Below are positions 21,564-34,828 of a stretch of DNA of 64,000 nucleotides, piece after piece (position 1 is the first letter of the stretch; the number at the start of each line of letters is the position of its first letter). A program made the translations under genes and the position numbers. The notes beneath the pieces were generated by a model that saw only the letters and a list, made by a program, of their open reading frames with translations, had not been told where the DNA came from and did no database searches. Source of the stretch: an uncultured Bacteroidales bacterium (lineage in GTDB: Bacteria; Bacteroidota; Bacteroidia; Bacteroidales; FEN-979); contig CAISRB010000017.1 in NCBI GenBank assembly GCA_903887775.1, positions 1 to 64,000 of the forward strand, written 5' to 3'.

Positions 21564-23357
21564 ATGAAAAAGAGTCTTTTATTGTCAGGTCTTCTCCTCT
21601 TTGTGTTCTCGGTTTTTTCCCAGGAAAGTTTCATGGTGAAAACCGAAACCAGATACTGGGACAATTCGAGGACTTATCCGGGGTATACCCTTTTTGGCAC
21701 AAGAGGAACCACCTACCTTATAGATTTTGAAGGACACGTGATCCACACCTGGCCCATCGGGACCAATCCCAGGTTTACCGAGGCGGGAACCCTGCTTGAT
21801 GCCGTAGGAGGTAACCCGAGCAACCAGAATCAATGGAAAGAGCTGGACTGGAGCGGGAATACTTTATGGCAATACACCGAATCCCGAACCAATTATCACG
21901 GGCACCACGATTTTGCAAAAATTTATAATACCAAGCTGGGAGATTCAACTTTCATATTTATTGCCAACAAGGATCTTACGGCACAGCAATGCCTGTCTGC
22001 CGGATGCGACCCATCTCATAATTACAACGGCGCCCAGATGGATGCCATTGTAGAGGTCAACAGGGCGGGGACTGTAGTATGGGAATGGTGGTTCTTCGAT
22101 CATGTGGTGCAGGATATTGATCCAACCAAGTCGACTTACGGGGTTATTGCCAATACCCCGGGAAAAATAGATCTGAACATCCGCGGGAACCCTGTTAAAA
22201 GCGACTGGATGCACTGCAACTCTCTTGATTACAACCAGGATCTTGACCTTATCGTGATCAACTCGGTACATGGCGAATTTTACGTGATCGATCATGGCAA
22301 TACATTTATTTCTGATGATCCTGCTGGCAGCATAGCTCTTGCTTCAACAACTGCGGGTGATTTCAAATACCGCTTTGGCGATCCTGCCAAATATGACCAG
22401 GGAGATCCTCCTTCGGTACTTGACAATTGGGAGAAAGCAACGGCCGGCAACAAACAGCTGGGCGGTTCCCATGATATTCAATGGATAAAACCAGGTCTGC
22501 CCGGTGCAGGCAATTTCCTGGTATTCTGCAATGCTCAAAACCTCTTCGAACTCACACCCCAGTCTTATATCATTGAAATCAATCCTTACCTCAATTCTTC
22601 GGGCACGATAACAGGCAGCTTTGTCAACCCTCCCGATGCGGGCTACAATATCGTATCATCTCCGGATCCCAACCTGATGAAAGAAAACAAGAACGTATCA
22701 AAGCAAATCGTATGGACCTATTCAAGCAAAAACAACACTTCGTTTTACAGTACGATAGGTTCCAGTGCTCAAAGGCTTCCCAACGGGAATACCTTAGTAT
22801 GTGCAATGAACGACGGTCATTTCTTTGAGGTGGCGCCTTCCGACACATCGATTGTCTGGGAATATACCAACCCTATGACACGCGACGGTTTAAAGAAAAT
22901 AAAAGTCGATAATTATCCTACATACAATGGTGTTTTCAGAGTCTACCGCTATGCTGCAGATCATCCGGCCCTGGTGGGGCATGATCTCACGCCCGGGTCG
23001 ACGATGACAGGCGCTCCTCCCGCTTTCTGGACCCCTGATGATATCACTGCCATTGAAGAACAAACTCAGTCTTCATCAGTCAATGATGATCTGAAACAGA
23101 ATTATCCAAACCCTTTCTCTTACGGAACTACGATAGAATTTTCAATTGCGGAATCAGCTTCCGTCAACCTCGTGATCTACGATCTGAACGGAACCCTGGT
23201 CAGGACCCTGGTCAATAAATATTGTACTGCCGGCCCCTACTCTCTTTACTGGGAAGGCACAAACGACAACGGAAACCGGGTGGCAAGCGGGATGTACTTC
23301 TATATTCTTAAAGCCGACAACCGAAAACTCAGTAAAAAAATGATATACAACAAGTAG
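21564..23357 (+). CDS. Arylsulfotransferase-like secreted protein with T9SS tail
   Basis: 597 residues: signal peptide (~1-20), a six-bladed propeller of the arylsulfate sulfotransferase (ASST) superfamily at ~25-500, and a type A T9SS sorting domain at ~510-597 (QNYPNPF motif, ending KMIYNK). Histidine-bearing blades fit the ASST core: HGHHDF, DWMHCNSLDY, GGSHDIQWI and RLPNGNTLV-GHFFEV. Known ASSTs transfer sulfate between phenols through a catalytic histidine; whether this protein is active is not known. First gene of a three-gene unit whose third member is a paralogue. Predicted to be exported and attached to or released from the cell surface. Confidence 0.83.
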   Translation: MKKSLLLSGLLLFVFSVFSQESFMVKTETRYWDNSRTYPGYTLFGTRGTTYLIDFEGHVIHTWPIGTNPRFTEAGTLLDAVGGNPSNQNQWKELDWSGNTLWQYTESRTNYHGHHDFAKIYNTKLGDSTFIFIANKDLTAQQCLSAGCDPSHNYNGAQMDAIVEVNRAGTVVWEWWFFDHVVQDIDPTKSTYGVIANTPGKIDLNIRGNPVKSDWMHCNSLDYNQDLDLIVINSVHGEFYVIDHGNTFISDDPAGSIALASTTAGDFKYRFGDPAKYDQGDPPSVLDNWEKATAGNKQLGGSHDIQWIKPGLPGAGNFLVFCNAQNLFELTPQSYIIEINPYLNSSGTITGSFVNPPDAGYNIVSSPDPNLMKENKNVSKQIVWTYSSKNNTSFYSTIGSSAQRLPNGNTLVCAMNDGHFFEVAPSDTSIVWEYTNPMTRDGLKKIKVDNYPTYNGVFRVYRYAADHPALVGHDLTPGSTMTGAPPAFWTPDDITAIEEQTQSSSVNDDLKQNYPNPFSYGTTIEFSIAESASVNLVIYDLNGTLVRTLVNKYCTAGPYSLYWEGTNDNGNRVASGMYFYILKADNRKLSKKMIYNK

Positions 23358-23407
23358 AGGATAACAGTACAGGATTTTTATCAAACAAACTCAAACAAAG
23401 GCAAGCT

Positions 23408-25072
23408 ATGGCAGGTGCGATGCATAAACTTCTTTTTACAGCGGTGATGATCATCGTGTTTTTACAAGGGGTGAACGCCCAGAAACTACTTCCTTTCAAA
23501 CTGCCTGACACGGGACAAACCGATTGGAGAGTGCCAAATGTAAAGGAAATCCAGTCGTTGAATAACGTAGCTTTATTCAAACCTTCGTTCGAAAAAACAT
23601 ATTTCCCCGATGTACTTTCGGGAAATTTCTGGACTTCGACCACATTGATCCAGGCCACTGAAAAAGCATGGGATATCAATATCGATTATGGCATTGTTTC
23701 ATATAATGTCAAGACTCTCAGCGAGAATGTTCTGCTGGTCAGGGGCGGCCTCGACAACAGCAGCTTAAATATTAACGAAGTCCATATCCCGGGCGGAGAA
23801 TATGAGATGGGGGATCATTTTGGTTTTGTTGATCCCCATCATCCCAGCGATGAATTGCCGGTTCATCTTGTCAGCGTTGATTCATTCAACCTGGCAAAAA
23901 CTGAAACCACAAACCAGCAATATCTTGCATTTCTGAATGCATCATTGCTATCGGGACTGATCCAGGTTAATAACAATAAAGTACATCTTGCTGGAGACAC
24001 TGTTACATTATGTTACACCCATGAGTATGCTGATTATTACAGCATCGGTTATGATGGTACGGTATTTTCGATGGCCGATTTCAGGGCAAACCATCCAATG
24101 GTAGGTGTACTATGGCCGGGGGCTGCGACTTTTTGCAACTGGCTGAGCGGTGTGAACGGACTTCAGGAATGTTATGATCTCACGACCTGGGATTGCGATT
24201 TTACAAAGAATGGCTACCGGCTTCCTACCGAAGCGGAATGGGAATACGCAGGCAGAGGGGGGCATCTCGATCCGTATCTCAAGTATGAAAATGGCAATGA
24301 GGTTATCATTTCGTCGGCAAACCTGCCCAACTCGGGAGATCCCTATGAAACGGGCTCTTATCCTTTATCGACCCCTGTTGGCTTTTACGACGGAACCCTG
24401 AAACAGAAAGAAAATTACAACTGGCCCGGGAGTGCATCTGAATACCAGACTACCGACGGTGCTAATGGTTTCGGTTTATATGATATGCAGGGGAATGTGT
24501 GGGAACTGATCAATGACTGGTATGGTCAGGACTATTACAGCATCTCTCCTTATGATAATCCAAAAGGTCCGACTACAGGATTTATCATGCCCGACGGAAA
24601 GCCGTACCGCGGGATGCGGGGAGGTAACTGGTATAACGGATATGATACACTTGGGGTCAATGACGGGCATTCGCGCGTTTCGAACCGGAACCCTTCGTAT
24701 TATCGTGGTCCCCAGGACCCGAATCATCCCTGGTATCATATCGGCTTCAGGATAGCGAGAAAATATTCAACGATTACAGGTTTAAATGAAACAGTCAGTA
24801 AGCCGGCTGAAACATTTCAGTTGGCACAGAATTATCCAAACCCATTCAACCGGACGACAACAATAAAATATTTCCTTCCATCGTCATCACAGGTTTCTTT
24901 AATGGTGAGCAATACCCTCGGCAGGCCGGTGGCTATTCTGGCTGATGGTGTGGAGAATGAGGGATGGCATACCCTGAGCTGGGACAGCGGGCAGCTCGGC
25001 AGCGGCGTCTATTTCTGCCAGCTTCTGGCAGGATCTCATCCGCAGACAATAAAAATGATTCTTTTTAAATGA
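23408..25072 (+). CDS. SUMF1-domain (FGE/EgtB-like) secreted protein with T9SS tail
   Basis: 554 residues; signal peptide to about residue 25 (the ATG at 23420 is an alternative start). A DUF1566-like region (~30-80, WRVPNVKEIQSL, FWTST) precedes a formylglycine-generating-enzyme (SUMF1) domain at ~117-460: IPGGEYEMGD, LPTEAEWEYA, GLYDMQGNVWEL, RGMRGGNWY and GFRIAR. The position of the catalytic cysteine pair in true FGE (the S/Y-x-C-x-R region) reads RVSNRNPSYY with no cysteine, so sulfatase activation is unlikely; it probably acts as a binding or structural C-type-lectin-like fold. A T9SS tail (QNYPNPFNRT) ends the protein. Confidence 0.85.
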   Translation: MAGAMHKLLFTAVMIIVFLQGVNAQKLLPFKLPDTGQTDWRVPNVKEIQSLNNVALFKPSFEKTYFPDVLSGNFWTSTTLIQATEKAWDINIDYGIVSYNVKTLSENVLLVRGGLDNSSLNINEVHIPGGEYEMGDHFGFVDPHHPSDELPVHLVSVDSFNLAKTETTNQQYLAFLNASLLSGLIQVNNNKVHLAGDTVTLCYTHEYADYYSIGYDGTVFSMADFRANHPMVGVLWPGAATFCNWLSGVNGLQECYDLTTWDCDFTKNGYRLPTEAEWEYAGRGGHLDPYLKYENGNEVIISSANLPNSGDPYETGSYPLSTPVGFYDGTLKQKENYNWPGSASEYQTTDGANGFGLYDMQGNVWELINDWYGQDYYSISPYDNPKGPTTGFIMPDGKPYRGMRGGNWYNGYDTLGVNDGHSRVSNRNPSYYRGPQDPNHPWYHIGFRIARKYSTITGLNETVSKPAETFQLAQNYPNPFNRTTTIKYFLPSSSQVSLMVSNTLGRPVAILADGVENEGWHTLSWDSGQLGSGVYFCQLLAGSHPQTIKMILFK

Positions 25073-25098
25073 ACATGAAAAGATAAATACAGCATCTT

Positions 25099-26811
25099 AT
25101 GAAGATAAAACTTTTAATTATCGCAATGCTTGTCCTCCCTTTAGCAAGAGTTGCAGGGCAGACAAGGACCATGGGGCTGATGCTTAACGACAGTACCAAA
25201 ACATATATCGGTTATACGTTGTTTGCTCCCAAGCAAAATACCATGACTTACCTGATCAATAATGACGGACGTAAGATCCACGAATGGGATGCCAGCACTT
25301 ATCCCCCTGGCCAGGCGGTCTACCTTCTTGAGAATGGGAACCTGCTGCGTGCTTGCATGACGCCCAGCCAGCTTGGTACCGGGGGTGGTGAAGGAGGACG
25401 AATTGAAGAATATGACTGGGATGATAACCTGGTATGGTCAATGGATTATTCAACTTCGACCTATATGCAGCACCATGATATTAAAAAGCTGCCAAACGGA
25501 AATATTATTATGCTGGTTGTGGAGAAAAAGACATACGCACAGGTGCTTGCTGCAGGTTTTGATCCCAGCAAACTGAGTTCGGAAATACAGCAAAAAGAAT
25601 ATATGCTTCCCGATTGTATTATTGAAGTAACACCGACTTATCCTGTTGGCGGTACCGTGGTATGGGAATGGCATGTATGGGATCACCTGATCCAGGATTT
25701 TGATGCTTCCAAATCGAATTACGGTATAGTGAGCGCCCATCCTGAGCTGATCGATTGCGATGGCGACCACAGGAACCTGCCCCTTTTCTGGAATCATATG
25801 AATTCCATTGATTACAACGCCTCGCTTGACCAGATCGCAATGAGTGTGAGAGGGAACAGTGAAGTATGGATCGTCGACCACAGCACGACAACGGCACAGT
25901 CGGCAAGTCATTCCGGGGGTGCCCATGGAAAAGGAGGCGACCTGTTGTACCGATGGGGAAATCCGTTAACCTACGGAGCCGGAACAATCAATGACCGTAA
26001 ATATTTTGAGCAGCATGATGTGGAATGGGTAAAGACCGGCTGTCCCGGCGCCGGGGATTTAACCTGCTACAACAACGGTATAGGCCGTACCCCGCCTTAC
26101 TCAACGATTGACGAAATAATACCTCCGGTTGATGTGAACGGAAATTATGCATATACTACTGGATCGGCTTACGGTCCGACAGGCTTTACCTGGTCATACA
26201 CGGCCACTCCCCCCGAATCACTGTATTCTGAAAATATCTCCGGAGCACAACGCCAGCCCAATGGAAATACAATAATCGACGAAGGCGGGCATGGTGATTT
26301 TACCGAAGTCACTGCCGCCGGTGAGCTGATCTGGAGATATATATGTCCTGTGGATGACCATGGCCCGATGACGCAGGGTGATCCGATTCCAATTAACCCT
26401 GTAAGGCCTGATGAAACCATGAATCAGGTGTTCAGGATCTACCGTTATACCCCGGATTACCCTGCATTTACAGGCAGAGATATGACCCCGGGCGGCTATA
26501 TCGAACTTTACCCCAGCGGGGTCGGTTATCAGGATTCCCGGAGTTCATCGGTATTCCTGCTTGATCAGAATTATCCCAATCCCGTAAAGTCTTCAACAGT
26601 CATAAGTTTTGAGTTGTTTGTAAACACTCATGTAAGCCTGAAAATCAGGGATATTACAGGAAGAGAAGTGTTAATTATTGTTGACGGGATAAAGGTTCCC
26701 GGCCGATACCAGATCCCGGTTGATATGAGCAGCTTTTCTGCGGGAATTTATTTCTATTCGATCTCCGCCGGAGGCATCTCCGAAACAAAGCGACTGGTTA
26801 TCGTGCACTGA
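25099..26811 (+). CDS. Second arylsulfotransferase-like protein with T9SS tail
   Basis: 570 residues, paralogue of the gene at 21564: signal peptide ending about residue 20 (ARVAGQ), ASST propeller at ~25-490 with matching blades (MQHHDIKKLPNGNI, WNHMNSIDYN, FEQHDVEWV, RQPNGNTIIDEGGHGDF) and a T9SS type A tail (QNYPNPVKSS). It begins 26 bases after the SUMF1-like gene. The stop is only 17 bases from the end of the convergent TPR gene, with no visible terminator between. Confidence 0.83.
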   Translation: MKIKLLIIAMLVLPLARVAGQTRTMGLMLNDSTKTYIGYTLFAPKQNTMTYLINNDGRKIHEWDASTYPPGQAVYLLENGNLLRACMTPSQLGTGGGEGGRIEEYDWDDNLVWSMDYSTSTYMQHHDIKKLPNGNIIMLVVEKKTYAQVLAAGFDPSKLSSEIQQKEYMLPDCIIEVTPTYPVGGTVVWEWHVWDHLIQDFDASKSNYGIVSAHPELIDCDGDHRNLPLFWNHMNSIDYNASLDQIAMSVRGNSEVWIVDHSTTTAQSASHSGGAHGKGGDLLYRWGNPLTYGAGTINDRKYFEQHDVEWVKTGCPGAGDLTCYNNGIGRTPPYSTIDEIIPPVDVNGNYAYTTGSAYGPTGFTWSYTATPPESLYSENISGAQRQPNGNTIIDEGGHGDFTEVTAAGELIWRYICPVDDHGPMTQGDPIPINPVRPDETMNQVFRIYRYTPDYPAFTGRDMTPGGYIELYPSGVGYQDSRSSSVFLLDQNYPNPVKSSTVISFELFVNTHVSLKIRDITGREVLIIVDGIKVPGRYQIPVDMSSFSAGIYFYSISAGGISETKRLVIVH

Positions 26812-26828: not shown

Positions 26829-27560
26829 TTATTTGATCAGTCCCAGTCCTTCGGTTGCCGATGCATCCTTGGGTCTCATAAGAAGAGCTTTATTGAACAG
26901 CACCTGGGCTTCGCGAAGTTTCCCAAGGCGATATTCAGTCCATGCGTAAAGTACCATGCTGTCGTAATCGAAGGGATACAGGTTTACTACTTTTTCGAGA
27001 TATTTTTCGGCTTTGGCATAATCTTTCCGGCCATAAAGGATAGAACCCATCCTGTAATTAATCAGTGTGTTCTGGGGATCTATTGCAAGAATATCATTAT
27101 ACTGGGTTATTATCTGATCCCAGTTCCCCAGTGCAGAGGCAGGATTTGCAAAACCGATTTTGGCTTCAATGGCATAAGGTTTCAGTTTGATGGCTTTCTG
27201 ATAGTATGCTGATGACTCAGTAAATTGACCTGCCAGGTATGTCACCCAGCCCAGCCTCAGGTTGATCTCATAAGAGTCTTCCTGGTAAATGCCTTTCATT
27301 GTCGTGATGGCATCGGTGAAATTCCCCCTCGATTCATAGGCGTAGCTTTTCGAAAAGGCAGCCTGTTGCGCAGGGTAGTCGGTTTGGGCAAATGTGGGCA
27401 ATGCCAAGATTAAAAGTAGCGAAATAGCGAAGTAGCGATACGCTCGCATATTCACACCGCCGCTAAGGTGTTCCACCTGATGCGGCTTATGTGAAATGCT
27501 CGCTCCAATAAAACGATTTTCCTTGCGGACTTCCTTTATGCTTAGATTTAAAATTTCCAT
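26829..27560 (-). CDS. Secreted TPR protein; N-terminus partly formed by a dispersed repeat
   Basis: 243 residues, or 206 if begun at the ATG at 27449. The signal peptide starts at that internal ATG (RYFAISLLLILALPTFAQ), followed by about five TPR-like helical pairs (residues ~60-240, YQKAIKLKPYAIEAKIG, AEKYLEKVVNLYPFD). The first ATG has a good GGAGG seven bases upstream and overlaps the barrel gene by 13 bases, yet the 37 extra residues are encoded largely by a repeat also found at 34.1 kb. Last gene of the six-gene operon. The start is undecided; the periplasmic TPR role is secure in type, not in partner. Confidence 0.75.
   Translation of the reverse strand: MEILNLSIKEVRKENRFIGASISHKPHQVEHLSGGVNMRAYRYFAISLLLILALPTFAQTDYPAQQAAFSKSYAYESRGNFTDAITTMKGIYQEDSYEINLRLGWVTYLAGQFTESSAYYQKAIKLKPYAIEAKIGFANPASALGNWDQIITQYNDILAIDPQNTLINYRMGSILYGRKDYAKAEKYLEKVVNLYPFDYDSMVLYAWTEYRLGKLREAQVLFNKALLMRPKDASATEGLGLIK
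27430..27505 (-). repeat. Copy of a dispersed hairpin element inside a CDS
   Basis: Read on the minus strand, this stretch (gagcattt, cataagccgcatcaggtgga, tagcggcggtg, aatatgcgagcg) matches the array at 34020-34165 in the same order. The match spans about 70 bp with scattered differences. Because it lies between the downstream gene's ribosome site and signal peptide, it appears to have inserted or recombined there. Confidence 0.6.
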
Positions 27561-29026
27561 GTGATTCCTCCAATGATTGAATTTGTGTTATACGGATTAT
27601 TTTGTATTTGCTGTTTTATACCGGTTCCTCCGATTTTTATGTACGTCTGCTGGCTCTCCTTTCGAAAATACTGATATATGAGCGATAGCTGGATGTGTTT
27701 GCTTAAAACAAATACCAGGCTGGCGCCGGCACGATAATCGATCTTATCACTGTTGTTATAAACGATAGCACCATTGAAAATATTGGCATTGGTATAATCT
27801 CCGTAATAAAAGTTGGCTTCACCCCACAACCAGGGAGTGAGTTTCGCACCCAGGACCTGGCTGAACAGCAGCCGTTTGTTTTTGCTCTGGAAAAAACCTG
27901 TCACCTCTGTGGTTCCGTAAAAATTCAGGTTGCCCAGTGGAAAATAGGTCAGCGATGCCCCGGCCTGGTACTGTGTCTTTCCATTAAGATTAGACCAGCT
28001 GCCTGCAAGGCCTATTACAAAACGCCCAATGTCTTTTGATATCCGCAGCGCAGCAACGAAATTATTGAACGTTGTATCTTTTTGCGTAAACCTATAGACC
28101 AGTAAAGGGTATGTGAACATATGGTAAGTACTGTCAAGTTTAGAATAAAAGGCAGTATCGCTGATGCTGTCGGTGCGGAAACTTGTGTTAGTTATGTTGT
28201 ATTTAACGTTGATCCAGTGAACCGCAGGCATAATCTTTATTCCCCAGGGAAGAGTTAAGGTTGCCCCGAGGTAAGCTTCATTCTGCTTTACATTATATTT
28301 TATGGCCGTATCGTGGACTTTCCAGGGAAAGGAATAAAAATAATCATTACTGAATTCCTGGTATGAAATACTGTCAAGTCGGGCTTCACTCCTGCCGTAC
28401 TGAACATATTTGGTCTTCGCGAAGTTCAAGTAATTGTATGCCAGGCTAAAACTAAGCCTGTTTGAGGCTCTGATGTTCAACCCGAAATTACCGTAGAAAT
28501 AGTTGTCGTAAAGGTCCTGTTCTCCATAAATACTGTTACTTCCCATGAGGGTGCCAAGATTTTTCGGAGCCCTGTCGCTGCTGAGGGTATAACCGCTTTC
28601 AAAATGGATCTGTTGGAGAAAACCGGTCCGGGAATCAGCAGTATCACGGTCTTTCGGAGCGAGGTATGCCTTGAGCAAAAGGGCCTCATCAATCCGGTTG
28701 GTATAGATATACGACCAATAAAGATAATCGGTTACATAGGAATCCCCTGAATTAAATTCCCTCGCCTTTTTCAAATGGGTCGACGCAGGAAAATATTCCT
28801 TGATCTGGTAATACGAGATTCCCATCCTCACCCTGAGATAGTAGTAATCGATATCCTGTTTCAGGGCCTTTTTGCCAACAAGGATCACACTGTCCCACTT
28901 CTGTTCAGTATAACAACGGTACGTCAGCATATCAACCGTCTGAAAATCGAGCCGGGCAGAGGCATACGCTGAAAAAGTCATCAGCCAGAAAAAAAGAATA
29001 AAGAGCGAAGCTGGTTTAAATGTCAT
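27548..29026 (-). CDS. TPR plus outer-membrane beta-barrel protein
   Basis: 492 residues. Signal peptide (LFILFFWLMTFSAYA), a short TPR-like helical region (~25-140) and then alternating aromatic strands to a terminal F (GGITWKF), the sign of an outer-membrane barrel of 12 or more strands (~150-492). Architecture is like YaiO-type TPR-barrel proteins, but I cannot confirm the family. The start overlaps the end of the M23 gene by 11 bases. In context it may be the outer-membrane exit or anchor for the product of the PqqD operon. Confidence 0.8.
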   Translation of the reverse strand: MTFKPASLFILFFWLMTFSAYASARLDFQTVDMLTYRCYTEQKWDSVILVGKKALKQDIDYYYLRVRMGISYYQIKEYFPASTHLKKAREFNSGDSYVTDYLYWSYIYTNRIDEALLLKAYLAPKDRDTADSRTGFLQQIHFESGYTLSSDRAPKNLGTLMGSNSIYGEQDLYDNYFYGNFGLNIRASNRLSFSLAYNYLNFAKTKYVQYGRSEARLDSISYQEFSNDYFYSFPWKVHDTAIKYNVKQNEAYLGATLTLPWGIKIMPAVHWINVKYNITNTSFRTDSISDTAFYSKLDSTYHMFTYPLLVYRFTQKDTTFNNFVAALRISKDIGRFVIGLAGSWSNLNGKTQYQAGASLTYFPLGNLNFYGTTEVTGFFQSKNKRLLFSQVLGAKLTPWLWGEANFYYGDYTNANIFNGAIVYNNSDKIDYRAGASLVFVLSKHIQLSLIYQYFRKESQQTYIKIGGTGIKQQIQNNPYNTNSIIGGITWKF

Positions 29027-31244
29027 CAGGCGAAGCGAGTTTGACTTGTGTCGTTATGTTATTCTCTTTGATGACAAATTCCTGCAAACCATGCGCTCCG
29101 ATGAAAAGTTCACATTCCATCCGTTTCACTTCCCGCCTTCCGACCTTTGCACTGGCCAATGATTTAAGACGAATGCCCGTCTGCATCACCTCATCCTCCA
29201 TGCGTGTGTAATTCATGCTATATTCCGAACTGATGAACAGGAAGAAAGGTGCAACGAAATCCTGCAGTAAGCCAAGAATCGGGTTACTGAAAGTATATAT
29301 GGGATAACTGTCTTTCACAAGCAGCCCGGGATAATACCCCATCATGACTTTATATGCCCCGAGGAAAAACCGGAAAAGCAGGGAAGAACGGTCGCCTTCG
29401 AAATGAGTAAAATAATGGATGTCGCCATCGTTACGGAACCAAGCCCTTGACTTTGTTTTCTCACAGTAAATACAGCTTGTGTTGATCGCACTGATCTCGA
29501 CTTCCCAGGTAAGGGTGTACTCGTTTTCGCTACCAGGATATACAATAAGGCTGAGTTTCTGCCCCGGAATAAAATGAAAGGCCTTCTCCATCGAACTGTT
29601 TTTGCTTACATTCGAGACGATGACATCGGTTCCTGGTTTTTCCCAGGAGGTTAATTCGAATGTGCCTTTTTTATGATTGATGTAATGGCTGATAGGATAA
29701 TCGAGGGTCTTAGATCCTATATAAGGCGTTGACTGTATCTGAAAATGGATGTGTGGAAAAGGTGAACGACCCGAGTTACCGCAGCTTGCAACGACCTGCC
29801 CTTTCTTCACGGCGTCTCCTGCCGCTACCTTGAAACTCCCGTTTTTCAGGTGAGAAAGTTTCGAGAAGAGCTGATCCGCATGCCGGAGGATGATCGTATT
29901 TCCCCAGTTGTGCTCAAGGTCAACATCCCCGATTTCATTTTCATCCACGCCATCCACGAGCTCCTCAACGCATCCATCAGCCGGCGCTAAAACCGGCTTA
30001 TTGTAACCATAATAATCTTCGCGATCGTTTCCACTGCCTTCGTAGGTCTTACCTTTCTCATCGGTAATTTCAAAATCCCATGCATGGCGCCAGTCGCCCG
30101 TGTGAGTTAATTTCCCGCTATGTCCCTGGCTTACTTTCCATTCTCCCCAGAATGGAAGGGTGAACGGGAAATACAATGCTTTTCCGAAGCGGGCACGGTA
30201 ATTGAGGTGGGCATACAGGTTTTTCTCAGGTGAATATTGCTGGTAACTGACCAGCTCCGGTTTATCAAAGAAGCGCTCCCGGAATTTCAGGGAGTAAAGG
30301 AATAAAAGCACGATTAGATTGAACGGAAGTGAGTAAACAGAGAGCTGAAACATCGAAAAAACCATCTGTGTGCTTGTAAGGATTATCGAGATAAGGGGTG
30401 TAAGAAGTATCACCCAGAGAAACGACCACCGTGAAGGGATGATAAAAAATCCGCCAATCGCGATGGATGTAAGGATAAAGTTGAATCCAATATAGCTGTA
30501 ACTGAGTTCACGGATATCAGCCCCGATGAAATGATAATAAACATATGCTGAAAAAAAGCCTACAAGCGAAAGCACAAAAGCAATCCGTGAATAGATAAGC
30601 AGTCCAACTGCAACGAGTACACCAGCAAAGAGGTGATACTGAAAAAAGATGGCGCCCAGAGAGGTAAAATATAATCTTACCGATTCGTGAATCCCGAGAT
30701 TGGTAAGCCAGTTGTAAGAGGCAACCATATCGTGCCCTCCCATGCTGAACATCTCATTGGTCATGAAAATGCCGCGTTCGCTCACATGCAGTGCGGTGAA
30801 CTGTCGCGTGGCAAGACTTACAGCCCAGGTACCCAGTAAGAACGACATGCTCATAAAAGGGAGTCCGTATTTCCCTACCACTCCTTCCAGCAGGAGTGTA
30901 ATTAAGAGTGTAAGTAAGGCCGCAAAAAAAAGGACGATAAAAAATGCCGGACCCGGCTGAAAATAGACTCCGAGCCCCAGGCCCACGAGCAGGCTGTTAA
31001 ACCCGTAATATCCTTTTCTGATACTAACCCGGTTGAATCCGATGAGGTAGGCAAGGATGTTGGAGACCATCACTGCAATGACTCCGCTAAGACCGGCCCA
31101 GAAGTCAAAAAAACTCACAATGAAGAGGATCAGCGCAAAGGTCTTGCTGTTCGAAAAAAAGATCTGGGAATAGCTGTTAGCTATACTTGAAAGAAACGAC
31201 GGAAAGATGGATTTCAGCTTATGCACGATGTATTTAAGGTTCAA
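29016..31244 (-). CDS. Urea-transporter fold fused to M23 metallopeptidase domain
   Basis: 742 residues from a TTG start (an in-frame TAA lies just upstream). Residues 1-320 are ten or so membrane helices with the two-fold repeat of urea transporters: YYGFNSLLVGLGLG at ~79-92 and YIGFNFILTSIAIGG at ~251-265. Residues ~350-510 carry an M23-type Zn peptidase with H387xxD390 (RHAWDFE) and HIH at 498-500 (PFPHIHFQI). The rest (~520-742) is beta-rich of unknown function. Urea transporters fused to cell-wall peptidase domains exist in other Bacteroidota, to my recollection. The operon has no urease gene, so transport of urea or a related small amide is only inferred. Start overlaps none; 9 bases after the decarboxylase. 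Confidence 0.85.
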   Translation of the reverse strand: MNLKYIVHKLKSIFPSFLSSIANSYSQIFFSNSKTFALILFIVSFFDFWAGLSGVIAVMVSNILAYLIGFNRVSIRKGYYGFNSLLVGLGLGVYFQPGPAFFIVLFFAALLTLLITLLLEGVVGKYGLPFMSMSFLLGTWAVSLATRQFTALHVSERGIFMTNEMFSMGGHDMVASYNWLTNLGIHESVRLYFTSLGAIFFQYHLFAGVLVAVGLLIYSRIAFVLSLVGFFSAYVYYHFIGADIRELSYSYIGFNFILTSIAIGGFFIIPSRWSFLWVILLTPLISIILTSTQMVFSMFQLSVYSLPFNLIVLLFLYSLKFRERFFDKPELVSYQQYSPEKNLYAHLNYRARFGKALYFPFTLPFWGEWKVSQGHSGKLTHTGDWRHAWDFEITDEKGKTYEGSGNDREDYYGYNKPVLAPADGCVEELVDGVDENEIGDVDLEHNWGNTIILRHADQLFSKLSHLKNGSFKVAAGDAVKKGQVVASCGNSGRSPFPHIHFQIQSTPYIGSKTLDYPISHYINHKKGTFELTSWEKPGTDVIVSNVSKNSSMEKAFHFIPGQKLSLIVYPGSENEYTLTWEVEISAINTSCIYCEKTKSRAWFRNDGDIHYFTHFEGDRSSLLFRFFLGAYKVMMGYYPGLLVKDSYPIYTFSNPILGLLQDFVAPFFLFISSEYSMNYTRMEDEVMQTGIRLKSLASAKVGRREVKRMECELFIGAHGLQEFVIKENNITTQVKLASPDDI

Positions 31245-31253
31245 TGGCGCAAA

Positions 31254-32612
31254 TTACATATTAAATTTTTTCAAATGAGCCGGCACTTTCTCCATACTGT
31301 TCATATTATCGACCGTTTCGCGAAGGCGGATCACATGAGGTTTTCCATCCATATCGATAAGCACTACGTTGGGCCTGAGAGCGATGAACTGCATCCATTG
31401 GGTCATATTATAAGCGCCTACATGATGAATCACCACATGATCATTTTTGTTTAGTAATGGCAGACTGGCGCTTTCACGGATCACATCGATGTTCATACAC
31501 AAGGGGCCGTATATGCAGGTATCTTCCGAATAATTGGTAAACTCCTGTGCTGGTGTGATCTTATGATCGTACCAGAATGCGGTGAATAATATATTAACGC
31601 CGATATCAAGAATCGTATTGCGACGTCCGGTACTGGAGCGTTTGTTCGAGATCACCGATCCCAGAAGATAGCCCGCTTCATCAATAAGGGCACGGCCCGT
31701 TTCAAGGATCAGAAGGGGCAGATTTTCATGCTTGAAATTACTGTTGAGCAAAGCCGAAGAGATAGCTTCGGCGAAATCGTCAAACGTCGGGTTAGTATCG
31801 GAACCCGGCAGATAAGCACCTTTCAGAGTGTTCTTTGAGGCAAACCCTCCCCCCATGTCAATATATTTTATTTTGTGTTTGAATTTCTGTTCCACCGATA
31901 ATGCTAGTTCAGCAAGTTTTGAAGCAGCAACTCCATAAGCCGAGGGCGCAAGCATGAACGTGCCGATATGACAATGAAGCCCCACCAGTTCCATCCATTC
32001 CGAATGCATGATCTTATTAATCGCATCCCAGGCCTGGCCGTTCTCATAGTTGAATCCGAAACGATCCCATATAGGATATACACCGGTATCCATGTTAACC
32101 CTGATTGCCACTCTGGGGCGTGCTTTGAATTTTTCGGCCAGTTCGGAAATGGTATACAACTCATCGAGGTGATCAATATGGATAAGGGAGTCATTCTTTA
32201 TTGCCTTCGTAAGGTCCTCCTCACTTTTTTCCGGGCCGTTGAAAATGATCTTCTTTCCATCTACTCCCAGGCTGATGGCCTTATCGTATTCAAATCCCGA
32301 AACCACCTCGGCCCAGGAGCCTTCCTGGTGAAAAATGCTGCATATCGAATTCAGGTAATTGGTCTTGTACGACCAGGCAAACTGCACCCTGGGATACCTT
32401 GTCCGGAAAGCCTTCTTTGCTTTCTGTATTGTACTGCGAATGATCTTTTCGGAGATCACAAACAAGGGCGATCCATACTCTTTCATCAGCTTTGTAACCG
32501 GCACACCATCGATGTTGGTCATCGGCTGGTATTCTGTTCTCGTTCCGAATTTGTTCGGCATACCGGTTTCAAGTTTCTTGATCACCGGACGTTCATATCG
32601 TTGTTTTGACAT
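31254..32612 (-). CDS. Group III PLP-dependent decarboxylase relative (LysA/BtrK fold)
   Basis: 452 residues. The alanine-racemase-like barrel and decarboxylase barrel are clear: PLP lysine K83 (WSYKTN), H213 (GLHCHIGT), DMGGGF at 252-257, ETGRALI at ~304 and HHVGAYN near 408. The distal active-site motif, CESGD in diaminopimelate decarboxylase, reads CMNID (C372-D376): cysteine and aspartate kept, glutamate and serine lost. So the substrate is probably not meso-diaminopimelate. N-terminal ~35 residues are an extra extension. It is 20 bases after the ATP-grasp gene. Related enzymes act on amino acids or on amino-acyl carriers in natural-product pathways. Confidence 0.85.
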   Translation of the reverse strand: MSKQRYERPVIKKLETGMPNKFGTRTEYQPMTNIDGVPVTKLMKEYGSPLFVISEKIIRSTIQKAKKAFRTRYPRVQFAWSYKTNYLNSICSIFHQEGSWAEVVSGFEYDKAISLGVDGKKIIFNGPEKSEEDLTKAIKNDSLIHIDHLDELYTISELAEKFKARPRVAIRVNMDTGVYPIWDRFGFNYENGQAWDAINKIMHSEWMELVGLHCHIGTFMLAPSAYGVAASKLAELALSVEQKFKHKIKYIDMGGGFASKNTLKGAYLPGSDTNPTFDDFAEAISSALLNSNFKHENLPLLILETGRALIDEAGYLLGSVISNKRSSTGRRNTILDIGVNILFTAFWYDHKITPAQEFTNYSEDTCIYGPLCMNIDVIRESASLPLLNKNDHVVIHHVGAYNMTQWMQFIALRPNVVLIDMDGKPHVIRLRETVDNMNSMEKVPAHLKKFNM

Positions 32613-32632
32613 ATGCTTTATTGTTAATTGTA

Positions 32633-33679
32633 TTACAGTTCCCCATACATGCTGATCTGCTCAAACTCCTCCCGGTCAACGATCATATCCCAGGAATATC
32701 TTACAAACATCTTGCCGACGGCATACTCTGTAAAGGGTTTCACTGTATGCCCCATGGCGAGGTTGACCAGGACTTCAGGGATGTTCTGCCCTACTCCTAC
32801 CGCCAGGTAGATCCAGGCCGGCAAACGCGGATTTATCTCAAGCAGGTAAAGCTCTCCATCCTTGTTTTTCATCAGCTCCAGCTCAAAACCGCCACGCCAT
32901 TTGGTATTCCTGAGAAATTTCCGTGTCATGTCGAGCATCTTTTCATCTGAAATACTGATCCCTCCCCAGGCTTTGCCCTTGTCTGTGATATATTGTTTGC
33001 GCATGGGCACGGCAGCAATGGTTTTCCCGGTTCCATCGCCAAGTCCTGTCACGTTAAATTCCGTACCGTGAATAAACTCCTGGATGATGACCGGAAGCCC
33101 CCATTTAGCGCTGATCTTGTTAAAATAGCTTTTGACCTGTTCAATGCTGTAGGCAATGGACGCATCGTAGAATTTACCTTTCACTATCATCGGAAAAGAA
33201 AACTCGGAAGGCAGGCTGTGAACAGTGCTAAGATCATAGATCACCTTGCTCTTAGGTACCTTGATCCCATATTTTTTACCGAAGTCATTCAGGTTGACTT
33301 TATTACGCTCTTCGAATTGATGAAGGGTCGGCAGGAACATATGAATGCCCATTGTTTTCAGATTATGCTCGAGCTTAATAAAAGGATAAAGTTCCGCATC
33401 GAAATTGGGAATGATCACATCTAGTTTTTCTTTTTCCTGTATGTACTGCAGTCTTTCGAACAACAAATCAATACCGGCTGTGGGATAGGGAATGGAATAC
33501 GTACGATCGACCAGGTCGTGCATGTATATACCTGGCTCCAGCGATTCATAAGACAAGCCGATGATACGGGTATTGAATGATGCCGCCTCCCTTAACGCCC
33601 TGATCACCGATACTCCAGGGCCCGGACTGTCGATGGCATTAAGGCCGGTAACGGCAATATTAAGCGTTGGTTTCTTCAT
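32633..33679 (-). CDS. ATP-grasp ligase (CarB-like)
   Basis: 348 residues with an N-terminal Rossmann-like pre-ATP-grasp part (LNIAVTGLNAIDSPGPGVSVIRAL), a nucleotide-binding lysine region (FPMIVKGKF near 164), a second strand with VIIQEFIHGTEFNV near 196-209 and metal ligands in ELELMKNKDGELYLLEINPRLPAW near 262-287 (E..N..R). The family couples ATP to amide or acyl-phosphate bond formation. The start overlaps the PqqD-like gene by 20 bases. The partner substrate is unknown; with PqqD it suggests peptide or amino-acid ligation. Confidence 0.88.
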   Translation of the reverse strand: MKKPTLNIAVTGLNAIDSPGPGVSVIRALREAASFNTRIIGLSYESLEPGIYMHDLVDRTYSIPYPTAGIDLLFERLQYIQEKEKLDVIIPNFDAELYPFIKLEHNLKTMGIHMFLPTLHQFEERNKVNLNDFGKKYGIKVPKSKVIYDLSTVHSLPSEFSFPMIVKGKFYDASIAYSIEQVKSYFNKISAKWGLPVIIQEFIHGTEFNVTGLGDGTGKTIAAVPMRKQYITDKGKAWGGISISDEKMLDMTRKFLRNTKWRGGFELELMKNKDGELYLLEINPRLPAWIYLAVGVGQNIPEVLVNLAMGHTVKPFTEYAVGKMFVRYSWDMIVDREEFEQISMYGEL

Positions 33680-33920
33680 GACTTTCGATCAGGTTATTGT
33701 GAGAAAGTACGCCGATGAAATCCTGGTAGTCATTTTCGAAAGCTTGTTTTTCGGCGTTGTACTTACCAAGAATGGCCTCGCTGATCTGCTCATCAGTCTT
33801 TTCTTCGCGCAGGAAGTTCAGGATTTCAACTCCGATCGGGTTAACCGAAAAAGATTCACCTGTCACCGGGTTGAAAAGCAATCCTGACTCACTGACTGCA
33901 ACATTTTTTTTAAGTTTCAT
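33660..33920 (-). CDS. PqqD-like small protein (RRE fold)
   Basis: 86 residues with the PqqD pattern: a basic start, a short beta segment (GLLFNPVTGESFSVNPIGVEILNFL) and helices (EQISEAILGKYNAE, FENDYQDFIGVLSHNNLIE). PqqD proteins and RRE domains bind leader peptides in RiPP pathways; other PqqD-like proteins work with carrier or radical-SAM enzymes. No precursor peptide is evident in the 250 bases upstream. First gene of the six-gene operon, overlapping the ATP-grasp gene. I did not find a strong promoter match upstream; a weak TAATATTG lies near 33945. Confidence 0.8.
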   Translation of the reverse strand: MKLKKNVAVSESGLLFNPVTGESFSVNPIGVEILNFLREEKTDEQISEAILGKYNAEKQAFENDYQDFIGVLSHNNLIESHEETNA

Positions 33921-34172: not shown

Positions 34173-34778
34173 CTAACTCCCGGCTGCCAGCAGATCCAGG
34201 GGTTTCCTTTCAATGGTCGGGTTTGCCTTATAGTCAGTAACCGAGACTCCGGTCACCAATTTGAATTGAGTACTGAGGTATTGTACGCTGCTGTATCCCA
34301 TCATGTAAGCAATTTCACTAAGGGTAAGTTCGCCGTAATGTATCAGTTCCTTGACCTTTTCTATTTTATGAAAAATCGTGAATTTCTCAAGCGTGGTATT
34401 TTCATGCTTTGAAAACAATGAAGATATATAGGGATACGACATATCGAAGCGTTCTACCAGGTAATCTGAGTTCTTTACCATGGCGTTATATGTGGAATTG
34501 TGTATCAGCTCTATCATGGCCTGCTTGATCTGCTCAACAAGGATTTTTTCTTTATCTAAAATAATCTCGAAACCAAAATCTTCAAGCATCTTTTCGATCA
34601 TTTTCAGGCTGATTTTTTTCGGATCATAAGAAAAATCAAGGGTCCCGAGTTTGATGTCGTGGATTATGATGCCATCGATATCCAATTCTTTCCTGAGCAG
34701 GCGGATACAGCAATTGCAGACCATGTTTTTAAGATGGATGGTCTTTTTAACCAGCGCTGTTTTCATTTTTATGGTCAT
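34173..34778 (-). CDS. AraC-type regulator with N-terminal HMA-like domain
   Basis: 201 residues from ATG 34778 (a TTG at 34814 would add 12). An HMA-like ferredoxin fold with M-V-C-N-C-C metal-binding motif and CIRLLRKELDIDGIIIHDIKLG lies at ~10-75, followed by a helical linker and an AraC HTH pair (~110-200: LTLSEIAYMMGYSSVQYLSTQFKLVTG). This fusion of a CxxC HMA domain to AraC occurs in other Bacteroidota; metal sensing is probable but not proven. It follows the GT39 gene by about 50 bases and probably shares its transcript. Confidence 0.83.
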   Translation of the reverse strand: MTIKMKTALVKKTIHLKNMVCNCCIRLLRKELDIDGIIIHDIKLGTLDFSYDPKKISLKMIEKMLEDFGFEIILDKEKILVEQIKQAMIELIHNSTYNAMVKNSDYLVERFDMSYPYISSLFSKHENTTLEKFTIFHKIEKVKELIHYGELTLSEIAYMMGYSSVQYLSTQFKLVTGVSVTDYKANPTIERKPLDLLAAGS

Positions 34779-34828
34779 CGGGCTCAGATCAGGGGATATA
34801 ATATCCGCCGACAAATCAAATGATAAAA

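Follow-up and report, generated by a model that had tools for sequence, protein, structure and literature searches.

A stretch of 64,000 nucleotides from an uncultured Bacteroidales bacterium of the GTDB lineage FEN-979 (GenBank assembly GCA_903887775.1, contig CAISRB010000017.1, positions 1 to 64,000; hereafter the window) carries six closely packed minus-strand genes at positions 26829–33920. They encode a PqqD-like RRE (recognition element of ribosomally synthesized and post-translationally modified peptides, RiPPs), an ATP-grasp ligase, a pyridoxal phosphate-dependent decarboxylase, a urea channel fused to an M23 peptidase, an outer-membrane barrel protein, and a secreted TPR protein. These six genes make up a real system. 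The RRE retains the pocket residues by which related proteins hold the leaders of peptide precursors, and what it binds seems to be a tail at the N-terminus of the decarboxylase. With moderate confidence we propose that the RRE docks the ligase and the decarboxylase into an assembly which would make an amide-bearing amine and which is joined to a conduit through the cell envelope.

The decarboxylase (31254–32612, minus strand, 452 amino acids) starts with a leader-like tail of 32 residues (32517–32612, minus), an extension of about 20 to 30 residues that precedes the starts of both BtrK and the LysA model. The tail is predicted to be disordered. In an AlphaFold2 model built with 74 homologues supplied, the predicted local distance difference test (pLDDT) score was 52, 42, and 59 over its successive ten-residue segments and mostly above 85 beyond it, with a mean of 88.7 for the whole protein. 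Nearly all decarboxylases of such operons begin with M-x-K-x-x-[YF]-E-R-P-x-I-x-K. In the window the RRE-type recognition motif, assigned from motif counts and covariation, reads YERPVI at residues 6–11 (32580–32597, minus). Here and below, the row sets contain near-copies, and some contigs are listed under two locus identifiers. Among 118 tails, position 6 was Tyr in 108 and Phe in 10, Glu7 was kept in 116 and Pro9 in all 118, and position 11 was Ile in 103, Leu in 11, and Val in four. Past the motif, Lys21 (32550–32552, minus) was invariant (118/118) and Gly23 nearly so (117/118). This lysine lies 12 residues beyond the motif Pro, within a conserved [PM]-N-K-F-G segment, and is a candidate modification or carrier site. 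The mean share of the majority residue was 0.75 in the tail and 0.76 in the enzyme body (96 rows).

In N-terminal windows of equal length (40 residues), the pattern [YF]-E-x-P-x-[ILV] was found for 107 of the 111 decarboxylase gene models vs. 1 of 1321 other open reading frames (ORFs). The four models without it comprised a split gene (L128), two with long model starts (L067 and L150), and one that reads FEPP (L047). In L128, at 1058–1256 relative to the ATP-grasp start, the tail is in a different frame from the decarboxylase body, probably through an assembly frameshift. The genome from which the window comes is 98% complete; in it, DNA coding for Y-E-[RS]-P followed by two hydrophobic residues occurred 2 times, compared to 12 for the reversed pattern. 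One occurrence was the decarboxylase tail and the other a single YESPIV, and a tag shared with other proteins of the genome was accordingly set aside, the pattern being limited to Y-E-[RS]-P. Of the four other diaminopimelate decarboxylase (DAPDC)-like matches in the same genome, the three read (all but the one on contig 10) were without the extension; one of these three (L167) has FNIPEI, in a part aligning to the enzyme body. Comparison of the tail alone with solved leader peptides yielded no match.

The presumed partner of this tail is the PqqD-like protein (33660–33920, minus, 86 amino acids), which matched PF05402 with 42.6 bits (cut-off 23.4). Its best single-stretch match in the PDB was the lasso-peptide RRE TbiB1 (E 1.3e-7); the repeat protein SconeE scored 9e-8, only through summed weak stretches. 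Published structures place [Y/W]xxPx[L/V/I/F/A] leaders in a two-part RRE pocket (PMC13381572). For LppB, the RRE of linear polyphosphorylated peptides, the same work gives D70 as bonding the leader Tyr, N33 as fixing the Pro kink, and V35, I56, Y60, V67, F74, L32, and others as lining the pocket. TbiB1 has L32, V35, I56, Y60, V67, D70, and F74 (and D33) at the LppB numbers, the numbering being carried over with LppB itself unaligned. Through the TbiB1 alignment, the equivalents in the PqqD-like protein were V26, N27, I29, I50, Y54, F61, D64, and F68. Among 88 RRE rows N27 was present in 88, F68 in 86, D64 in 80, and Tyr at position 54 in 76, with Phe in the remaining 12. By this alignment, the PqqD-like protein keeps the residues of a YxxP-binding pocket. 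It thus shares with the lasso RREs (TbiB1, FusB1/TfuB1) and LppB the sequence family, the Asn/Asp/Phe pocket, and a partner motif of the [Y/W]xxPx[L/V/I/F/A] type, but it apparently serves the N-terminal end of an enzyme of 452 residues. A second PqqD-domain protein of the same genome (141 amino acids; L165, 8403–8828 on contig 5) lies beside an apparent OPT transporter; it looks unrelated to the system and was dropped as a member.

Tail and pocket vary together. In 106 RRE/tail pairs, the residues at tail position 6 and RRE position 64 were Tyr/Asp in 94, Phe/Tyr in 10, Phe/His in one, and Tyr/Ser in one. Four RRE rows (L083, L098, L111, and L132) come from loci without a tail and stand outside these pairs. 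The sole odd pair, Tyr/Ser, belongs to L129, a locus with a masked RRE whose reading frame runs off. With this locus left out, Asp64 accompanied the Tyr-tag in 94 of 94 loci and Tyr or His accompanied the Phe-tag in 11 of 11. Five of these loci, outside the 100 pairs compared by column below, gave the same picture: L046 has the Phe-tag with Tyr64, and L052, L082, L085, and L128 have the Tyr-tag with Asp64. Across 100 pairs (L129 left out), position 64 was the only one of the 86 RRE columns that fully separated Phe-tag from Tyr-tag loci, and position 6 was the only such column of the 452 in the decarboxylase. The covariation carries weight because this lone separating RRE column is the very one predicted from structure. 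In a quick tree, the first six Phe-tag loci formed one clade, and a tree of the decarboxylase only, with 50 rows and all eleven Phe-tag loci, needed two changes. The pattern is therefore one or two coupled changes preserved through deep lineages, not many.

The gene set is common to widely separated Bacteroidota. Loci were gathered via the ATP-grasp gene; a scan of named genomes gave at least 540 stretches encoding a relative, of which the best 80 loci were kept. Among 61 relatives, own genome included, 39 matched at the threshold, 36 of them strongly and three weakly (identity at most 31%). In the best 80 loci, the six-gene order and strand were preserved for every gene found (80/80), and for this reason we regard the operon as beyond chance. 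All six genes were present in 54 loci; 24 of the 26 incomplete loci were truncated by contig ends, with L098 and L131 as the exceptions. By gene, PqqD was found in 79 loci, ATP-grasp in 80, the decarboxylase in 76, the urea channel/M23 fusion (UT-M23) in 69, the barrel in 59, and the TPR protein in 55. The barrel is the least conserved component, and the most distant loci gave no match to the window's barrel.

The phylum was sampled evenly with 395 genomes, of which 35 had an ATP-grasp match at E 1e-30, one of them weak and with no UT-M23 match (G429). A UT-M23 search of the same genomes, scoring two candidates per genome, matched 41: the match covered the channel in 34 and was confined to M23 in seven. 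The 34 channel-matching genomes were exactly the 34 with a strong ATP-grasp match; the two genes lay on the same contig each time, 1.4–2.8 kb apart, and no channel-covering match occurred in the rest of the sample. The fusion was split or contained a stop in a few of the 34 (G065, G184, G303, and G315); in the G065 locus (L143), channel and M23 are in separate frames. Occurrence in two other groups was patchy (12/194 and 9/195 genomes).

Where linkage is broken, the genes persist. Two genomes (G570 and G627) have the ATP-grasp gene with neither an RRE nor a decarboxylase gene adjacent. Both, as well as the genomes of L098 and L131, retain UT-M23, a decarboxylase with an intact tail, a PqqD-like gene, and the ATP-grasp gene. 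In G570 and G627, each of these four core genes lies on a separate contig, and short contigs may conceal some adjacency; in the L131 genome, only UT-M23 is displaced elsewhere. That all four genomes with unlinked genes keep the whole set speaks most strongly for joint action of the core genes. A further 25 loci contained both the RRE and decarboxylase genes in 22 cases; L213 was truncated at a contig end, and L204 and L205 had ATP-grasp alone. As to whether the genes stay together or occur independently, the first held for order in all 80 loci, and the second applies in part to the four genomes with unlinked genes, which still possess the whole core.

Several loci carry additional genes between the decarboxylase and UT-M23. 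An IF-2B-type protein (assigned by Pfam in L096 and L103) is inserted in L096, L097, L103, L105, L106, and L108, with a remnant in L121. A histidine kinase, identified by reading, together with a class I/II aminotransferase (Pfam run on that of L092) is inserted in L092, L100 (contig shared with L043), and L118, i.e., on three distinct contigs. The remaining inserted genes are unrelated. These insertions suggest a link to amino-acid metabolism, though they are not constant.

ORF listing and Pfam confirmed the six minus-strand genes of the initial annotation with their overlaps of 20, 11, and 13 bases and gaps of 20 and 9 bases, the 20-base overlap being that of the RRE and ATP-grasp genes. The 13-base overlap of the barrel and TPR genes is uncertain, since matches of TPR-protein homologues start at residues 12 to 53. 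The TPR protein (26829–27560, minus, 243 amino acids; Pfam TPRs) possibly has its true start at 27449, where Met38 coincides with the onset of a signal-peptide-like stretch.

The ATP-grasp protein (32633–33679, minus, 348 amino acids) matched ATPgrasp_Ter with 43.2 bits (cut-off 29.1). K167, E268, E281, N283, P284, and R285 were invariant in ten aligned rows, and the E-x-N-P-R signature is retained. It scores as carbamoyl-phosphate-synthase-like, and a match to the PylC-like N-domain stayed below the cut-off (17 vs. 27 bits). PylC attaches an amino acid to the side chain of a lysine, and this chemistry is one reason for suspecting Lys21.

The decarboxylase, a two-domain enzyme by Pfam, matched Orn_Arg_deC_N with 107.6 bits (cut-off 23.4) and belongs to the DAPDC/FslC/BtrK fold group. 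The best PDB match was the N-citrylornithine decarboxylase FslC (7kh2, 208 bits), followed by DAPDCs; BtrK matched with 89 bits, from residue 33 on. Its active site is conserved; K83 and C372 are among the residues that did not vary across 75 rows. A role as LysA was ruled out by its score of 220.3 on TIGR01048, below the cut-off of 297.9, and by a true LysA (397.6 bits) elsewhere in the genome. At the conserved Cys, the operon enzyme and FslC both read G-P-x-C-M, and DAPDC has L-C-E-S-S-D where these two have C-M. Because the enzyme shares C-M with FslC and differs there from DAPDC, a substrate with its far end already acylated is a sensible guess. The FslC alignment opens after the operon enzyme's tail; the N-terminal residues of FslC lie outside it, and a tail could be present there. 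In butirosin biosynthesis, BtrJ, BtrI, and BtrK are an ATP-grasp ligase, an acyl carrier, and a decarboxylase. The ligase and the DAPDC-fold decarboxylase are thus shared, the latter acting there on a carrier-bound amino acid, but the operon has no acyl carrier protein; by analogy, the carrier role would fall to Lys21.

The envelope side begins with the UT-M23 fusion (29016–31244, minus, 742 amino acids), which combines a urea-channel domain at residues 19–318, an M23 domain at 414–505 (Peptidase_M23, 55.2 bits, cut-off 28.7), and a C-terminal region of about 237 residues. The channel scored above the PF03253 (UT) cut-off (197.5 vs. 25) and below that of TIGR03441 (117.7 vs. 274.6). Compared with bacterial urea transporters (dvUT, 3k3f), the fold is shared and the pore Gln and two Ser/Thr are largely retained (Q27 in 74, S132 in 81, and S305 in 72 of 86 rows); the operon channel differs in its fusion to M23 and in having Ala in 76 of 86 rows at the second urea-binding residue (Ala198, equivalent to E187), the dvUT numbering and the urea-binding roles being those we presume for these residues. 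In the M23 part H381, D390, H465, H498, and H500, which we take to be the zinc and catalytic residues, were invariant in 86 of 86 rows. The N-terminus, the first inner loop, and the stretch directly past the last membrane helix carry positive charges. This charge pattern hints weakly that both ends, and with them M23, are cytosolic. Both termini of known urea transporters are cytosolic.

The barrel protein (27548–29026, minus, 492 amino acids) matched no Pfam family at E 0.1 and was classified by its AlphaFold2 model (mean pLDDT 93) and structure comparison. The model has a signal-like helix, TPR helices at residues 28–127, and then a beta-barrel. The nearest structures were FadL/TodX channels (Z 19–21, best 20.8), followed by OmpG, CymA, and other barrels (Z 17–19). 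Foldseek gave no close match, with a TM-score of at most 0.42 over the query among the matches listed.

Taken together, the initial suggestion of a core linked to envelope parts and composed of a peptide-binding RRE, an ATP-dependent ligase, and a decarboxylase is supported, and we propose the following course. The PqqD-like RRE likely binds the YERPxI tail of the decarboxylase, as judged from motif and pocket, much as lasso RREs bind precursor leaders, and this docking would bring the decarboxylase to the ligase. The ATP-grasp enzyme would join an amino acid into an amide, after which the FslC-like decarboxylase would remove the alpha-carboxylate and leave an amide-bearing amine. The small product or its precursor may cross the inner membrane via the urea-type channel and the outer membrane via the TPR/FadL-like barrel; the M23 domain may trim a peptide, perhaps the decarboxylase tail.

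Several observations weigh against this proposal. The decarboxylase reached only 242.5 on the FslC model NF041039, far below its cut-off of 500, and the RRE reached nearly the same score with the NCBIfam models for ScmD (29.5 bits) and lasso RREs (29.2 bits), with no model exceeding its cut-off. Column entropy was 1.22 in the tail vs. 1.03 in the body (96 rows), so the tail is slightly more variable. The covariation represents one or two evolutionary events and may have a single origin. The two genomes with an ATP-grasp gene lacking adjacent RRE and decarboxylase genes indicate that tight coupling is not universal. Finally, a urea-type pore is small and has lost its second urea-binding residue; it may carry another solute or run inward.

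A narrower form of the docking proposal, compatible with it, has a probability which we place just short of even. In this form the tail serves solely as a tether for the decarboxylase, the ATP-grasp enzyme takes unattached small molecules as substrates, and Lys21 makes a structural contact with the RRE or the ligase. It would account for the covariation of pocket and tail and for ATP-grasp genes that lie apart, and related ATP-grasps work on free amino acids. The conservation of Lys21 and Gly23 past the motif that contacts the RRE, in contrast, calls for a further role. A bolder reading, possible but rather doubtful, has the decarboxylase bear its own substrate arm. While the RRE holds the YERP leader, the ATP-grasp enzyme would load Lys21 with an amino acid, linked via the carboxylate of that amino acid's side chain. 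The tail would then swing and bring its cargo to the decarboxylase active site; after decarboxylation, the M23 domain or an amidase would release the product, which would exit by the channel. We consider it unlikely that the tail is a RiPP-like leader and core fused to the enzyme, with the RRE presenting it to the ATP-grasp enzyme for modification of Lys21 and a peptidase, perhaps M23, later releasing the modified piece as the product. A leader-like motif followed at 12 residues past the Pro by an invariant Lys and by a near-invariant Gly would suit such a fusion, as would the five M23 residues kept in 86 of 86 rows and the lack of a separate precursor among the ORFs scanned (see below). Borosin precursors are likewise fused to their methyltransferase, with a peptide segment covalently within the enzyme; the operon differs in having a leader-like motif with a separate RRE and no methyltransferase. 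Against the fusion, conservation of the segment is very high by the standard of natural products, albeit a trait shared by cofactor-type RiPPs; a peptide would not fit through a pore of urea size; and the conserved decarboxylase active site would be needless in a mere carrier of the core.

Two further readings are disfavoured. The initial annotation had considered a RiPP-like product, for which a conserved short ORF would be expected nearby. No conserved precursor was found in the 120 loci in which it was looked for: ATG-started ORFs of 20–110 amino acids outside larger ORFs, from -2 to +8 kb, were scanned for [YWF]xxPx[LVIFA] within the first 35 residues, and for precursors lacking the motif, coverage was limited to clustering of ORFs of at least 60 amino acids. 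Some match occurred in 27 of the 120 loci, none conserved, and that in L128 was the split decarboxylase. Lasso clusters differ likewise in their cyclase and protease, as no Asn-synthetase-like cyclase or B2 protease was present among the six genes, the three upstream genes, and the four further neighbours scanned. A classical RiPP with its precursor gene elsewhere and a coincidental YxxP-like tail would give the RRE its usual kind of client, as RREs normally serve RiPP precursors (PMC12710340). We nevertheless regard it as highly improbable: [YF]-x-x-P-x-[ILV] is present in 118 of 118 tails, RRE position 64 tracks tail position 6, and the Y-E-[RS]-P pattern occurs just twice in the genome, a count that covers this pattern and not other YxxP proteins, which were not searched for. 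The other disfavoured reading, also raised initially, is remodelling of cell-wall peptides by M23, with the decarboxylase handling diaminopimelate-type amino acids. The M23 family and the DAPDC fold would fit it, but the sub-cut-off LysA score, the separate LysA, and, weakly, the M23 domain predicted from channel topology to be cytosolic make it very unlikely.

An AraC-type regulator (34173–34814, minus), outside the core, is a possible regulator of the operon; 36 of 106 loci have it nearby. Its N-terminus gave a weak HMA-like match that stayed below cut-offs. A metallophore reading with metal sensing by this protein was dropped, as MxCxxC was present in just 17 of the 36. On the plus strand at 21564–26811, two arylsulfotransferase-like proteins around a sulfatase-modifying-factor-like protein, all with type IX secretion tails, converge on the operon. 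A plasmid search for isolates with the system gave a single Streptomyces match of 25.5%.

We know of no earlier case of an RRE used on a metabolic enzyme instead of a RiPP precursor. Neither such a client nor this gene set was found in the open-licence PMC literature, in agreement with the initial statement that no described pathway combines the six genes. RRE-leader recognition and precursor-enzyme fusions are both already known; the gene set and the enzyme client are the new part. Since no precursor was found, the operon is better placed as a variant of RRE-guided biosynthesis than as a RiPP cluster. If Lys21 does carry the substrate, the system would be a counterpart of carrier-protein chemistry in which a leader gives guidance and the carrier is tethered to the enzyme. 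RREs serve as markers for RiPP clusters, and many of them are without an identified precursor (white nodes in PMC12710340). If an RRE can serve an enzyme tail, part of these orphan RREs may be reread, and the RRE-leader pair would be a more general docking module. For the Bacteroidota, the system points to a widely kept, uncharacterised pathway.

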